Both the position numbers and the translations under genes were made by a program. The notes beneath the pieces were generated by a model. That model saw only the letters and a list, made by a program, of their open reading frames with translations. It made no database searches and was not told the DNA's origin. Positions 36,901 through 42,900 of a DNA stretch of 64,000 nt are shown piece after piece. The stretch covers positions 6,657,501 to 6,721,500 of the forward strand of contig CM049418.1 in assembly GCA_026929865.2 (NCBI GenBank), written 5' to 3'. This DNA is from Hyperoplus lanceolatus (taxonomy: Eukaryota; Chordata; Actinopteri; Uranoscopiformes; Ammodytidae). Numbering within the stretch: position 1 is the first letter of the stretch; every line of letters begins with the position of its first letter.

Positions 36901-39900
36901 TGCAGTGAAAACAGAAAAACAACAACAAAGTGTGAGTTGCAGTGAGCAGACAGCAAATGACAGTGGTGTGGATAGAGGGGCCGGCACACCGATAAACAGC
37001 ATTGGAACAGAAGAGAGACAAGCGTCCAAAGAAAGTTAATAACATTGAACTACATTTGTGTTTGTTTATGGTTGTGGTTGTATGCCAGGGGCCAAGCCGA
37101 GAAAAGCAAAGCAGACAGTCATGGATGGACAATGCCTTGTTCTGTGTGCAGAACCGTGGAAGAAACAAAAGAAAGTGATAAAAGGAAAGAAAGACTGAAA
37201 AAAAACAACAGAAGTAGCATAAGCGCGTACAATGCATCTTCAGTAAAGATGTAGAAAGATGTGCAGCTTCAGTTATTATCAAAAATACAGATATAAAAAA
37301 GGTTAGGGTCACGGTCATAATCCACCACTAACATTTCAATTGATGAAAATCTATTCCTCCGCCATTGTTAAATACAAAAGAGAATGGCTACAAAAAGGCT
37401 CTACCACAAAACATCCAAATTACAGTGCAAGTTGCCGACGACAGACGAGACGGAAACCGAGTGTAAAAGTGCTCCAAAGAGAGGACATCAGCTCGGCCAA
37501 AGCAGAATGAAAAGGCAGACCAGTCGTCAACTACAGCACAGCTTACACATGTATCACATCATTATGTTTAACTAGAACTAGGTACAATCGAGTCTCTGCC
37601 ATTAACATTCAATCAAATACACTGTACAAATAAAAAGGGGAATATCTCTCAGTTAGTCAATCCATATTATCCTCGTGGTTTGACACAGTCCAAAACAACC
37701 ACAGACACACTCTGAGTCAACCTGTATAAAGTATCTGAAACAGATAAAACATCATAAAACAGCTTTTAAATGACCAAAAATGTCCCATTAAAGTCCCTTA
37801 GTGAACTATCATCTCAAAGCCCTGCTATTGCACAAGACGACAGTCAAATATTTATAAAAGTTTGATTTAGAGGAAACCGCTAAATTAGGTTGCTAAAAAC
37901 CGTAGAAACCCTATTACAGCAAACAGGTCTATTAAGGTGTAATGACCAGGAAAAGGCAGCGGGTCCTGGTCAACTCAACGAGCAAGCAAGATCAATGCCG
38001 CCTTAAAAATCGGTTACTCTCTCGTTTCGACACCTTAATATCTTGACAACAAGCAAAACTTCATTTACAAAAGTGAGCAAATGCAAATGCTAAAATGTTT
38101 TTGAAGAAAAACAAGGAAGATTTGCAGAAAAGATCTTCCCCAAAAGAGCTACAATTCTACACGTGAAGGTGTCCTTTAGATGTCTATCTATCTGAACATA
38201 TACATCAACATTGAATATACAATTTCTTTAAGTTATGGCACGTTGTGAAGAGGATTTCTCTTGTAACATTACCCTACGCTGATTCCTTCACATTTCACAT
38301 AGATATGTGTAAAGTTAGACTGACACCAGCCACCGATGCAAAACTGGGGATTAGAAAACATTGGATGTAGACTTGATTCGTCTAACACAGGAGCAGTTGT
38401 TTCTACCCAGTTTAAAAACCTAAAAAATATGTCAAAATGTCCGTTTCATACTACAAAAATATGTTAAAAAATGAGTTTGATATATATGGAGTTTCGAAGG
38501 TAAGCTAGGGTATACAGGTGGATTAGATCAAGAGCTGTACTTCTTTTATTTCAACAATCAACAAGCAGCTGGTCGATTCAATTCCCACAATGTCTAAAGA
38601 GACAAAACCTGCATCGCACATCTACATATTGAGATGCTATCATTCTTATATTAATTGTGCAGATTTATTACGCCTAGCTACTTGCATATCTTAACCCTTT
38701 AACAGCTGAAAACGCGGCCCCCTATGTCCTCCTCATTAAATCGGTAACACCCTTCCTCCTCGTCACTCTCACCCTCTCCCTCCCCCTTCCCCTCCCCTAG
38801 CTGGAGACTCCCGAAGGAGCACTTGGTCATGGGAGATGAAGAGCCTACGCCGTTGGAATTGACCGAATTCATGGAGCTTACAGCGGCCGGGTTTCCGTAC
38901 ATTAACGGATGGCTGTACGCGCTGCTGCCAGTGTCTGACTCTGTGTCGCTACCGGTGTCGTCGGAGCCGCTGCTTGTGGACCCATCTATCATCTGGACCG
39001 GTTTCTGGTTTAAGTTGTTGTGGTTGTTACGGGTTGCGTTGTTAGGGTTACCAGAGGGAGGCTTTCCCTGACGACCGAACAACCGCTGTACGGTGTTGGA
39101 CCGCGCCTGACCTGGTGCCCCTAGGTTCCCCATGTGATTATTACCGTTAGTTATAATCATCCTGCGCTCGGTCGGGGCAGAGCACGGGGCTTGTTGCATG
39201 TGCTGCAGCCCCGAGCGTTGAGTGTCGTGCAGGTGGTGTACGGGCGTGGACGTGAGCTGGCTGAGAATGAACGGGTCGGTATCGGAGCGGTTCCTCATGT
39301 TGTTGTTGTTGTTGTAGGGTTTGGCGAAGTGAGGCGGCGTGCGGTTGGAAGTGATGGGCGAGTAGCTGCCGTAGTGGGTTAGCGGGTGGGGCTGCTGTGG
39401 TGGTGGCTGGTGGACAGTGGCAGGCTCCACTGGGAAAACGCCCGGACGTTTACCGAAATGAAGCCCGCCCTCGTCCCAGTGCGCGTGCTGCTGCTGACCG
39501 TGACCATTTGTCATCTCGGCGTGACTGACGGAGTTGGTGCGGTGGTGGAAACTGCTGATGACGGGGCTAGAACACTGGCTACGTGTACCGGTCCCTAGCG
39601 GTCGCCCTAAGCCCGCCGCGGCACGCTTCTCTCGTCCTTGAAAGATCTCGCCCAACAACGTGCTGTGGAGCGGGAGGCGGCCGTGATACAAACCCCCTCC
39701 GTTGGATAACATTTCGTCATCGGTTAGCTCGTGACTCACGTTGAACCTACTTGGAGACTGATCTACGGCACTTCTGTTACCCAGCATACCTTGCTGCTGA
39801 TGCTGATGCTGCATTAGCCCCTGGTGATTGGTGTGGTAGAACCCATTTACTGCCCCGAATAGACCCCCGGTGGCTTGCCCCCCATTGCGACTGCTACCCC

Positions 39901-42900
39901 CGTGCTTACTGCTATACACACAATTAGGCTCATCCGCATTGCTGTCATTTGCATTGCCACGGCCCCCGGGGGCCCTGTTGCTCTTTGACACATCACATTC
40001 ACTGTCTATGTCGCTGCAGTCTATGTAAGGGATAGAGGAGCTGCTGCCTTTGTTTGCCCTGGAAGATGGACCTGGGTTGAGGAAGTGAGTGTCCGGCGCC
40101 GATCCTCCTCCGTTGCCGTGGTGATTCTGTCGGGGCTGGGTGGGGTCCGAGCCGGGCGCCGTAGCTGTATCGTGGAAGCCGTTTGTGGAGGATGCGCCCA
40201 CTGTCGGTACCTCTGAACCATTGACCACAGCTTTATGGCCCTGTCTGGCTGAATCAGGCTGGTCTGCTACTGGCACAGACATGGCACTCTGACGAACATG
40301 AGAAAAGGGTAGAACAGATAGAAGATAGAAGAAAATTAGTGATGAGAAAAAGGAGAAAGATAAGCGGAGAAGCTTTTTAAACTCTTACCTAACAGGGTTG
40401 GTAATACTGAATTACTGGCTTGGAATAAATTGGCTTTTTTTACAAGGGAACAGCTTGGATAAAGCACACATTCAAATTCACTCGCTCCCTGGAGCTGCCC
40501 GGGACAAAAACAGCTTTGTACTTTTGTCCAACAGAGCAGCTCCATAGAGATATTGTGAAGTCATAAAAACAAGACACGAGGAGACTGTAAATGTGTACAA
40601 CAAGTAAAGCTACAAAGAAACGATAAAAGAAATAGAAAACTAAAGCAAAACAAAAAACAAGTGCATGGGTGTGCGAAGGTCAGTATATGTTGGTGTCAAA
40701 GTGTGTATCACCTCTTTTGGCACTTGCAATCTGAAGGAAGACGTCTGAGGCAACATGGACAGAACTTTACTGTGCTTCCTGGAAAGAAAGAAAAGAGCGG
40801 ACAGATGAGTTGCGATCATTTGCAATCAGGACCTTCTGTCTGCAATGATGGCTGTTTGCATTGTTGGGAGTAATTATACACAAATGAGGGAGATTCACCT
40901 TTCAAATGGAACTTTTTTAACCTCTGTGTCTTTCACATAATCTATGATCTGCTTCTGGGTTCGACCGCTGCAAGTACAAAGAGACAAAAGAGCAAACGAT
41001 GTCAAACAAATTCAAGAAAAAGAAGAATCCTTCCCTTTTTTTCCTGTGCTGTCCTTACCTGAAGCGGAATGAGGAGCCTCTGGTGAACAGGATGGGCTTG
41101 GGTTTGGGCTTGGGCTCCTCAAAGAGCCTGAAGAAAGCGTGATACTCCACGCAGATCTTCCAGAAGATCTTACAGCAATCCCTGCTGGCCATGGCAAACT
41201 CCAGTGTGTCATGGTGGGCATTCTGCTGGAATGAGACACACATGCCGATTTAAGTATGGATGGAGGGATAAGTGGATATATAAGTACAGACAAGATGAAT
41301 AGAAGCATTAGGGAGAGTATGAAAGGACAGGTCATATGGACTTACTGCGGGGTCTCCTCTCAGTTTGATTAGGAACCTCTTGCGTTTGAAGCTGAGTTTG
41401 CGAACCTTGGACCAGTTGAAGGCGTTAATCCTTGTGTACCCCTGCAGAAAGGGAGAAGATATAACAAGAAGATGATTAATATTGTTGAAAAAAACTCCAT
41501 ATCTTTCCAGGGAAAATCTTGCCACACCTTCTTCAACCACCGATGCCCTTAAATTCAAGGACTCAACATGGCATAGTTTGAGAAAAAGATCAATGTTAAT
41601 TACTGCTACTTCCTACTCCTATCTACATCTTATCCCATTTTGAATTAATAACAAACTAAATTGCAATCACACACCACCATTAAGTAAGTGCACTGTCCCC
41701 TTAGCTAAGAGGTTGCCAAGTTTTAAAATGAGGCTAATCAGTGAAAGTGTCTTTGCTGTTATCCGAGCAGATACAAAGGAGGTTAATGATTATAACACTC
41801 AACCTAAACATTTGTAGTCAAGGATAAAAAAAGAAGAACACTCCTTGGAAAAAGATGACGTAATGTCCTCCCTCCGTAGGAAAATATTTCATGAATCTGC
41901 ATTCCATGCCTCAAAACTTAGATATGCAGGAAAGTACTCACATTCCAGGAAAACAGATTTTATTTTTTTATGTGCAGTGACAGTATGTTGTTGAATCCTA
42001 TGTGTGATGGTTTTTACCTGGAAGACCAGTACTCCAGTGTGTGCTACAGCCAGGCTGAGCTTAGTACCCTCTCTGTCCTTGGCTGGGTGCAAACGAACGC
42101 CGTACATTTCCAGCCGCCGGGCTATTTCCAACAGCTGGTAGTCTGACTCTGCAGGGGTGTGCCCGCTGTGAAGGAGAATGATTGAACAATGCATTAATAT
42201 CACATCAATCTTCAACTCTTTCTCAAGCTAAAGCAAGTTATGTTAGGTGGCAACAAGCATACAGTTTTTTTTTTTGTTTTCCTGTATGATCTTTTGACAT
42301 CAATATCCCTGACCATGTGCTTATGTGTCTTTGTTTGCACTGTACAGTACCAGATGTTAGACACGACCCACTCCGGGTTACCATTTCAGATTTATTGTGT
42401 GAAGTGCAGAAACAATAAACAGCCTTTAAAAATACACCACAGGATCAGATGGTCACACAATCTACGCTGTGGGCGGAAAAGAAATCTGCCACGAAAGAAG
42501 TTTGTTTCCTCGCAAAAATCTGAAAATAGCTTCCTGTTTCCTGTATAAGCCACTGAATTAGCCACTTCCTTCCTGCGTTGGTTGAGAGATTGGAGTGAGT
42601 GGTGGTACAAAGTGTGACCATGATAAATAACCAGCATGTCAGCAGTTTGGTTTTGCAGCTTTTTATCTGTGGTTAGGGAAAAGGTTTTTAGGGGGAAATT
42701 ACATGCAGAGAACAAGGAAAAGCCTCATTGCATGTATTTGCATTGTGCGGTACGGGAAGCGCAGCTATAATGTAAATGAGGAGTAAGGTGCGTTTGTGTG
42801 TGAATGTGTGATCCCAGGGGCACAGAGGGAGGGCCAAACGGCATGTTTGGAGATAGCCACCTCTGCCGGTGGAGAGATTAGAAAATTAGAAATGTGTGTG

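Follow-up and report, generated by a model that had tools for sequence, protein, structure and literature searches.

The window analysed here is a 64,000-nt stretch of Hyperoplus lanceolatus contig CM049418.1 (positions 6,657,501 to 6,721,500), and a farp1 gene lies on its minus strand; all coordinates below are positions in this window. In work on dendrites and synapses, FARP1 and FARP2 are treated as Rac/Rho exchange factors. Exons were placed by tblastn of a provisional FARP1 sequence together with splice scoring, and the exon set comprises 24 seeds, two of which lay in a wrong frame and gave no usable splice sites, with the exon between 30492 and 30212 left out. The FERM-FA exons span 48941 to 40899 (48941-48837, 47635-47593, 47335-47257, 44781-44684, 43940-43826, 42165-42018, 41441-41346, 41222-41059, and 40967-40899). 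Donor 43826 outscores the alternative at 43828, which breaks the frame. The next exon, 40778-40712, encodes 22 residues and ends in phase 0 (donor score 6.13); its counterpart is the end of FRMD7 exon 11 (c.1050). The first exon of the GEF half, a linker exon placed by splice scoring and phase, is 33625-33432 and starts in phase 1, and the DH-PH-PH exons span 33308 to 24914. Pfam recognised FERM_N, FERM_M, FERM_C, FA, RhoGEF, and PH domains in the gene. In PDB, the FERM half best matched the FERM of zebrafish FARP1 (6d2q, E 4.6e-148, 495.9 bits, versus 431.5 for FARP2), and the DH-PH-PH half best matched that of FARP1 (4h6y, E 4.2e-112, 376 bits, versus 240.7 for FARP2). Judged by the sequences of its domains, which are closer to FARP1 than to FARP2, the host gene is farp1, the name that a preliminary description of this DNA had already given it.

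Between the two halves lies a large exon, 40288-38773, of 505 codons plus one base. Its minus-strand frame has no stop throughout, and it enters in phase 0 and leaves in phase 1, both as described previously. An AG precedes 40288 (acceptor score 9.49) and a GT follows 38773 (donor score 8.66); both scores are within the range of other farp1 sites. The claim that removing the exon would shift the DH-PH-PH frame is confirmed by the phase 0 end of the preceding exon and the phase 1 start of the linker exon. Because a direct join of 40712 to 33625 shifts the frame, the GEF half needs an exon, or a set of exons, of 3n+1 length. The three basic motifs noted earlier (RTNSVS, RNRSDTD, and RSNTVQRL) were all found, among five RxxS/T matches in the 529 residues of the extended frame described below; the preliminary description had suggested that they could bind 14-3-3 or govern FERM-DH autoinhibition. 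GC3 is 0.661 in the exon body and 0.713 in the other farp1 exons (705 codons).

The open exon is real. From stop to stop the open stretch covers 561 codons, longer than expected by chance: the maximum in 1000 Markov samples was 317. A non-coding or retrocopied frame that happened to be open and was captured in an intron is scarcely credible. It would agree with the exon product having no match in Pfam or PDB, and with a synonymous codon choice that does not favour farp1's own codon table (LLR -37 over 491 codons), but the length of the open stretch, the agreement of position and phase with FRMD7 exon 12, and the alignment of the C-terminus, both described below, all speak against it. No relatives were found in scans of viral and genome contig collections.

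The exon had been taken to end at 38773, but the frame instead runs on in phase for 23 residues (38772-38699) to a TAA at 38701-38699, giving 529 codons from the acceptor to the stop. GC3 is 0.609 in the 23 codons before the TAA, a short sample, and drops to 0.34-0.36 directly after it. AATAAA signals lie 30 and 149 nt downstream of the TAA, at 38669 and 38550, and by this signal scan 38698-38545 is a candidate proximal 3' UTR. More AATAAA signals at 35541, 35448, and 35159 hint at a possible extended 3' UTR (38544-35135). Between 38698 and 33640, AATAAA occurs seven times versus about 2.5 expected, and ATTAAA once versus 3.3 expected; AT-rich sequence commonly contains AATAAA, and ATTAAA is under-represented here, both of which count against a last exon. 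The GT at 38772-38771 is a phase 1 internal 5' splice site whose use would connect the exon to the DH-PH-PH half. Of the GT sites in the exon, 19 score above 3; this one ranks first, but two others reach 8.1. This donor is as good as the other farp1 donors, which counts against reading the exon as a last exon.

FRMD7, a human X-linked gene, encodes an eye-movement disease protein that is a FARP relative without DH-PH. One of its exon boundaries, c.1050+1, is tabulated in PMC3163398. With c.58 as the anchor, five of the six other published FRMD7 boundaries (c.162, c.205, c.284, c.497, and c.645) coincide exactly with boundaries in fish farp1; the remaining one, c.1050, falls 9 nt from a fish boundary of the same phase, 0. 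The fish exon starts at the equivalent of c.1042, 9 nt earlier than FRMD7 exon 12 and likewise in phase 0. By this ladder, the large farp1 exon starts at the position of FRMD7 intron 11/exon 12.

The FRMD7 sequence used in the alignments is provisional; about 39 of its positions, none after 674, were checked against printed variant positions. Local Smith-Waterman alignment of the whole fish tail with this provisional FRMD7 was not significant (out of 1000 each, 85 plain and 104 block shuffles reached the score), nor was that of C-terminal pieces (88 and 230 of 2000). The top local match of the whole tail fell in a proline-rich part. C-anchored and then global collinear tests, with reversed and wrong-frame controls, were chosen after the local result, which itself came later than recognition of the C-terminal motif. 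The global alignment of the fish tail with the provisional FRMD7 tail scored 104; shuffles averaged 30.5, and none of 1000 reached that score. Block shuffles did so in 0 of 1000 in one run and 1 of 1000 in another. Reversed controls gave z values of 0.2-0.6. Among the wrong-frame translations of the exon, one rose to z 1.9 under block shuffling (16 of 500). The fish tail without its C-terminal part aligns weakly with provisional FRMD7 (60 of 1000 shuffles; block, 39 of 1000), as does the 23-residue piece past the donor when taken alone (188 of 5000; block, 562 of 5000). Out of 5000 each, plain shuffles reached the score of C-anchored alignments of 50, 60, 70, and 80 residues in 1, 12, 42, and 39 cases, respectively, and block shuffles in 2, 46, 127, and 96. 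As controls at 70 residues, 4 of 294 other FRMD7 windows scored as high, the best of them overlapping the true end, and so did 23 of 975 FARP1 windows.

Near the C-terminus, the fish tail and FRMD7, in its provisional letters, share SPM...GSLQL, an acidic stretch, and Y(x)FN. SPM stands 45 residues from the end of the fish tail and 43 from the end of FRMD7, where its place at 672-674 is published. The pattern SPM-(4-9)-GSLQL, written after both ends had been viewed, did not arise once when the fish end was shuffled 200000 times. By global alignment the fish tail appears homologous to the FRMD7 tail, with the qualification that the local alignment was not significant and that the FRMD7 letters are provisional.

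We consider it likely, from the frame, the signals, the resemblance to FRMD7, and the isoforms of worm frm-3 described below, that 40288-38773 forms the main part of an alternative last exon of composite type in farp1, whose product would be FERM-FA with a tail of 529 residues and no DH-PH-PH. The preliminary description had instead proposed an exon that inserts about 505 residues between FERM and DH; were it a constitutive internal exon, all fish FARP1 would carry these 505 extra residues. Its recognition of a real exon and its frame argument stand, the splice sites are good and the phases fit, and the one strong 3n+1 candidate lying apart from the exon, 40494-40389, appears not to code for protein. 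A simple insertion is nevertheless not the best reading, and we regard a constitutive exon as unlikely: the frame passes the donor to a stop with AATAAA beyond it, the similarity to the FRMD7 tail reaches that stop, and the FARP1/2 linker is printed as about 200 residues in PMC6041286.

On the reading as a composite last exon, a transcript in which the donor at 38772 is unused would end here and encode FERM-FA with a disordered FRMD7-type tail, lacking DH-PH-PH. Use of the donor would instead bring in the DH-PH-PH half in frame and give a GEF protein; a nested acceptor may then allow most of the exon to be skipped. A possible nested exon of 28 nt, 38800-38773 (phase 0 in, 1 out; acceptor score 6.1), would encode LGEGKGEGE plus one base and bears a crude likeness to a provisional human FARP1 linker. 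The acceptor at 38800 is not unique, as the nested phase 0 acceptors at 39406, 39256, and 39067 score equally well (6.6-7.0); another at 38821 is weak (1.25). Setting the splice options against this provisional human linker is a crude test, since no more than the 40 residues next to the common exon entered it and the long form was represented by a piece of the exon's end; the similarity at the junction is only suggestive (214 of 5000).

In principle the GEF form could draw on a small exon of its own at 40494-40389, which enters in phase 0 and leaves in phase 1, so that the large exon would be purely a last exon. Its summed splice score (8.05 + 9.2) was the highest of 75 candidates of 16-450 nt, a limit that leaves the 1516-nt exon outside. 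With GC3 of 0.314, a codon LLR of -26.8 over 35 codons, and a score of 14 against 40-42.5 in the crude comparison with the provisional human linker, we find this arrangement quite improbable. The candidate was set aside on composition. A minority possibility that deserves more weight, and that overlaps with the composite last exon, is that the full exon is also spliced at 38773, so that a long GEF isoform exists beside the FERM-only isoform. Human FARP1 presumably has no comparably long linker between FERM and DH, which tells against such a long form; the internal donor would permit it, and it is suggested by the gene description of C. elegans frm-3 in PMC7260190, where FERM-only and GEF isoforms arise by splicing within the last frm-3a exon.

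Since use or non-use of the donor at 38772 would give GEF or FERM-only protein, the proportions of GEF and non-GEF FARP1 would depend on whether splicing at this site or cleavage/polyadenylation prevails. Probably the short form acts much as FRMD7 or worm FRM-3A does: its FERM-FA part would anchor it at membranes and synaptic partners and the tail would add partner binding, with no exchange activity. FRMD7 is reported to bind RhoGDI and CASK. If vertebrates do make a FARP1 product that lacks the exchange half, this would alter the reading of knock-outs, knock-downs, and FERM-directed antibodies. A relative of the FRMD7 tail inside FARP1 would likewise offer a first comparison for that tail, a testable C-terminal motif, and a simple origin for FRMD7.

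We also propose, as close to an even call but just short of it, that an ancestral FARP preceding the nematode-vertebrate split used a single composite last exon to alternate between a GEF and a FERM-tail scaffold. In fish, farp1 would keep both outputs, FRMD7 would be a duplicate that kept only the scaffold, which would explain its orphan C-terminal tail, and the intron retention reported for mammalian Farp1 in brain would involve the same exon. The frm-3a/b switch of worms would then look ancient.

Composite terminal exons, a class associated with intronic polyadenylation, are internal exons that extend to a stop and a poly(A) site when their 5' splice site is unused. The farp1 exon would resemble this class through its internal donor, its stop, and a predicted poly(A) site at the AATAAA signals at 38669/38550. 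In FRMD7 and in the proposed fish form alike, a single large last exon encodes a tail without domains that follows FERM-FA. They differ in that FRMD7 is a gene of its own, whose 714-residue product is described as having FERM and FA only, whereas the fish exon lies inside a full FARP1 gene, and in tail length (364 residues in FRMD7 versus 529 in the fish). For mouse and human Farp1, a review (PMC12294458, citing Li 2021) describes retention of a long intron, possibly giving a new 800 aa isoform in mice; its passages on Farp1 leave the retained intron unspecified and contain errors (four exons for Farp1 and, in a table, chromosome 3). At about 800 aa, this isoform has a size that a FERM-FA plus tail protein could have, since the 388 residues before the junction in provisional FARP1 leave about 412 for a tail, and it would fit the FERM-only reading. 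In its isoforms, worm frm-3 resembles the proposed farp1 by description. As described in PMC7260190, frm-3a and frm-3b correspond to what we propose for farp1, a single gene with two kinds of product: FERM-FA with a tail that has no domains, and FERM-FA-GEF-PH-PH.

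Judged by its sequence, the gene on the minus strand is farp1. The joined FERM-FA exons matched FERM_N, FERM_M, FERM_C, and FA in Pfam, and the later exons matched RhoGEF and PH. The closest solved FERM structure is that of zebrafish FARP1 (6d2q, 495.9 bits, vs 431.5 for FARP2), and the closest solved DH-PH-PH structure is also from FARP1 (4h6y, 376 bits, vs 240.7 for FARP2). The first coding exon was not found within the window by patterns or tblastn and is probably located past position 64000. A GGACT (gamma-glutamylamine cyclotransferase) frame at 22828–23340 on the plus strand (Pfam GGACT, E 4.1e-24) adjoins the farp1 3′ end on the opposite strand. 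Elsewhere on the minus strand, a 47-residue peptide at 14811 resembles an exon of another gene and has no Pfam match, and the open frames at 409–828 and 54215–54608 look artefactual; their CVCVCV runs suggest long (GT)n microsatellites.

A minus-strand open frame runs from 40384 to a TAA at 38701–38699, spanning 561 codons stop to stop (1000 first-order Markov sequences modelled on this stretch averaged 149, with a maximum of 317). It contains 40288–38773, which the preliminary description had presented as an internal exon between the FERM and DH regions. This segment is open throughout, with an acceptor score of 9.49 at 40288 and a donor score of 8.66 at 38772 in simple position matrices. Elsewhere in farp1, the top acceptor of each exon scores between 3.8 and 16.0 and the top donor between 5.0 and 11.8; of the 24 exon seeds behind these figures, two were out of frame and yielded nothing usable, and the final exon lacks a donor. 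The earlier phase argument holds: because exon 40778–40712 ends in phase 0 and exon 33625–33432, the linker exon that opens the GEF half, starts in phase 1, 3n+1 bases are required to reach the DH-PH-PH half. What the internal-exon description missed is that the frame continues beyond the donor for 23 more whole codons before the TAA.

We favor reading the segment as a composite alternative last exon, giving a FERM-FA protein with a 529-residue tail. The GC3 of the exon body is 0.661 and that of the other farp1 exons is 0.713 (705 codons); the 23 post-donor codons have 0.609, a small sample in which first positions likewise give 0.609. After the stop, GC at third positions is 0.34–0.36 whatever the frame (38698–38000) and 0.38–0.43 in 38000–36000. 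AATAAA occurs 30 and 149 nt past the TAA (38669 and 38550), and seven times in 38698–33640 against approximately 2.5 expected, while ATTAAA occurs once there against 3.3 expected. Counting against the favored reading, synonymous codon choice was no closer to that of the other farp1 exons than to base composition (LLR −37, 491 codons). The big exon also has an unusual residue composition (S, G, N, P, Q, and H). An A-rich short tandem repeat lies at 35210–35246, in a farp1 intron or a possible long 3′ UTR.

Three routes to the GEF form were weighed, and splice scores alone do not pick among them. The FARP1/2 linker has approximately 200 residues (PMC6041286, excerpt). When the first 40 residues were roughly compared with a reconstructed human linker, pieces using nested phase-0 acceptors and the donor at 38772 fit best (42.5 for 38800 and 40 for 38821), although this junction similarity is by itself no more than suggestive (214/5000). 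Acceptor scores are 6.1 at 38800, 6.58 at 39067, 1.25 at 38821, and 6.7–7.0 at 39256 and 39406. A stand-in piece for the form joined through all of 40288–38773 scored 30.5 in the same comparison. A separate 106-nt candidate exon at 40494–40389 on the minus strand, within the intron that precedes the big exon, has the right phases (0 in, 1 out) and a well-scored splice pair (8.05 and 9.2), but its composition is non-coding (GC3 0.314, LLR −26.8) and it scored only 14 against the same linker. For the main GEF form, we lean toward a nested piece; the long form is possible too.

Among the close relatives of the FARPs is FRMD7, which combines FERM and FA domains with an unexplained tail. Published splice positions place its exon boundaries at c.57/58, 162, 205, 284, 497/498, 645, and 1050; the c.206 boundary also appears in PMC9200781 (excerpt), and a start of exon 12, its last, at c.1051 follows from PMC10811807 (excerpt). 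With the fish exon beginning QRSAGK anchored at c.58 and the comparison limited to the tabulated boundaries, exon lengths of 105, 43, 79, 98, 115, and 148 land on 162, 205, 284, 497, and 645 to the base, and the exon preceding the big exon ends 9 nt before c.1050, both in phase 0. Agreement beyond the anchor is thus exact at 5/6 boundaries, and the big exon starts at the point where the last exon of FRMD7 starts.

The human FRMD7 sequence used is a reconstruction, as no collection searched returned the protein. Its length of 714 equals the printed length, and it agrees with published variant residues at 30/32 and 9/9 positions, both misses being entries whose own cDNA numbers indicate the next codon. 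Global alignment of the fish tail (529 residues) with the reconstructed FRMD7 tail (364) scored 104; shuffles averaged 30.4–30.5 and never reached it (0/1000 in two runs), and block shuffles did so in 0/1000 and 1/1000. Reversed controls gave z of 0.2–0.6, and the two wrong frames of the exon gave z up to 1.9 (57/500 and, in blocks, 16/500 for one; 360/500 and 257/500 for the other). Most of the signal comes from the C-terminal part (0/2000, block 2/2000); the remainder aligns weakly (60/1000, block 39/1000), as do the 23 post-donor residues alone (188/5000, block 562/5000). Local alignments were not significant for the whole tail (85/1000 and 104/1000) or the C-terminal piece (88/2000 and 230/2000). 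Both tail ends share SPM, 45 (fish) and 43 (FRMD7) residues from the C-terminal end; after it come GSLQL, a stretch of acidic residues, and Y-(R)-F-N, the FRMD7 letters after SPM being those of the reconstruction. The bases for S672-P673-M674 are printed in a published deletion (PMC7958879, excerpt), and further check positions came from excerpts of PMC9200781 and PMC6977136.

Splicing at 38772 would compete with polyadenylation after 38699, thereby setting GEF versus non-GEF FARP1, and the latter would retain the FERM-FA part that binds membrane and partners. Full-length FRMD7 binds RhoGDI-alpha, which neither half does by itself, and it releases Rac1 (PMC3742540, excerpt); its C-terminus governs localization (PMC3163398), and CASK binding is reported (PMC9200781, excerpt). 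In the worm, FERM-FA suffices to rescue GABA-A receptor clustering (PMC7260190, excerpt). By analogy with these data, short FARP1 would likely be a scaffold or GDI-displacing form.

An annotated isoform containing this exon may well exist in genome annotation. Among the matches listed for FARP1 isoforms, splicing, intron retention, and FRMD7-FARP paralogy, with subscription papers mostly outside the scope, titles and abstract openings named neither the vertebrate farp1 exon nor an FRMD7 link. The literature search found no paper joining FRMD7, FARP, and gene duplication, or frm-3 and FRMD7. In the reconstructed FARP1 sequence, 388 residues precede the junction. In mouse Farp1, a retained long intron may yield a novel 800-aa isoform, according to an excerpt of a review that contains errors (PMC12294458, citing Li 2021); the difference, a tail of approximately 412 residues, falls between those of FRMD7 (364) and the fish (529), which is arithmetic and no proof. 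Caenorhabditis elegans frm-3, an orthologue of FARP1/2, encodes FRM-3A, a FERM-FA protein that lacks any domain recognizable at its C-terminal end, and FRM-3B, which carries the GEF and two PH domains; the two come from a splicing choice inside the final exon of frm-3a (PMC7260190, excerpt). A second paper counts three frm-3 isoforms, of which two have a FERM domain (PMC9632837, excerpt).
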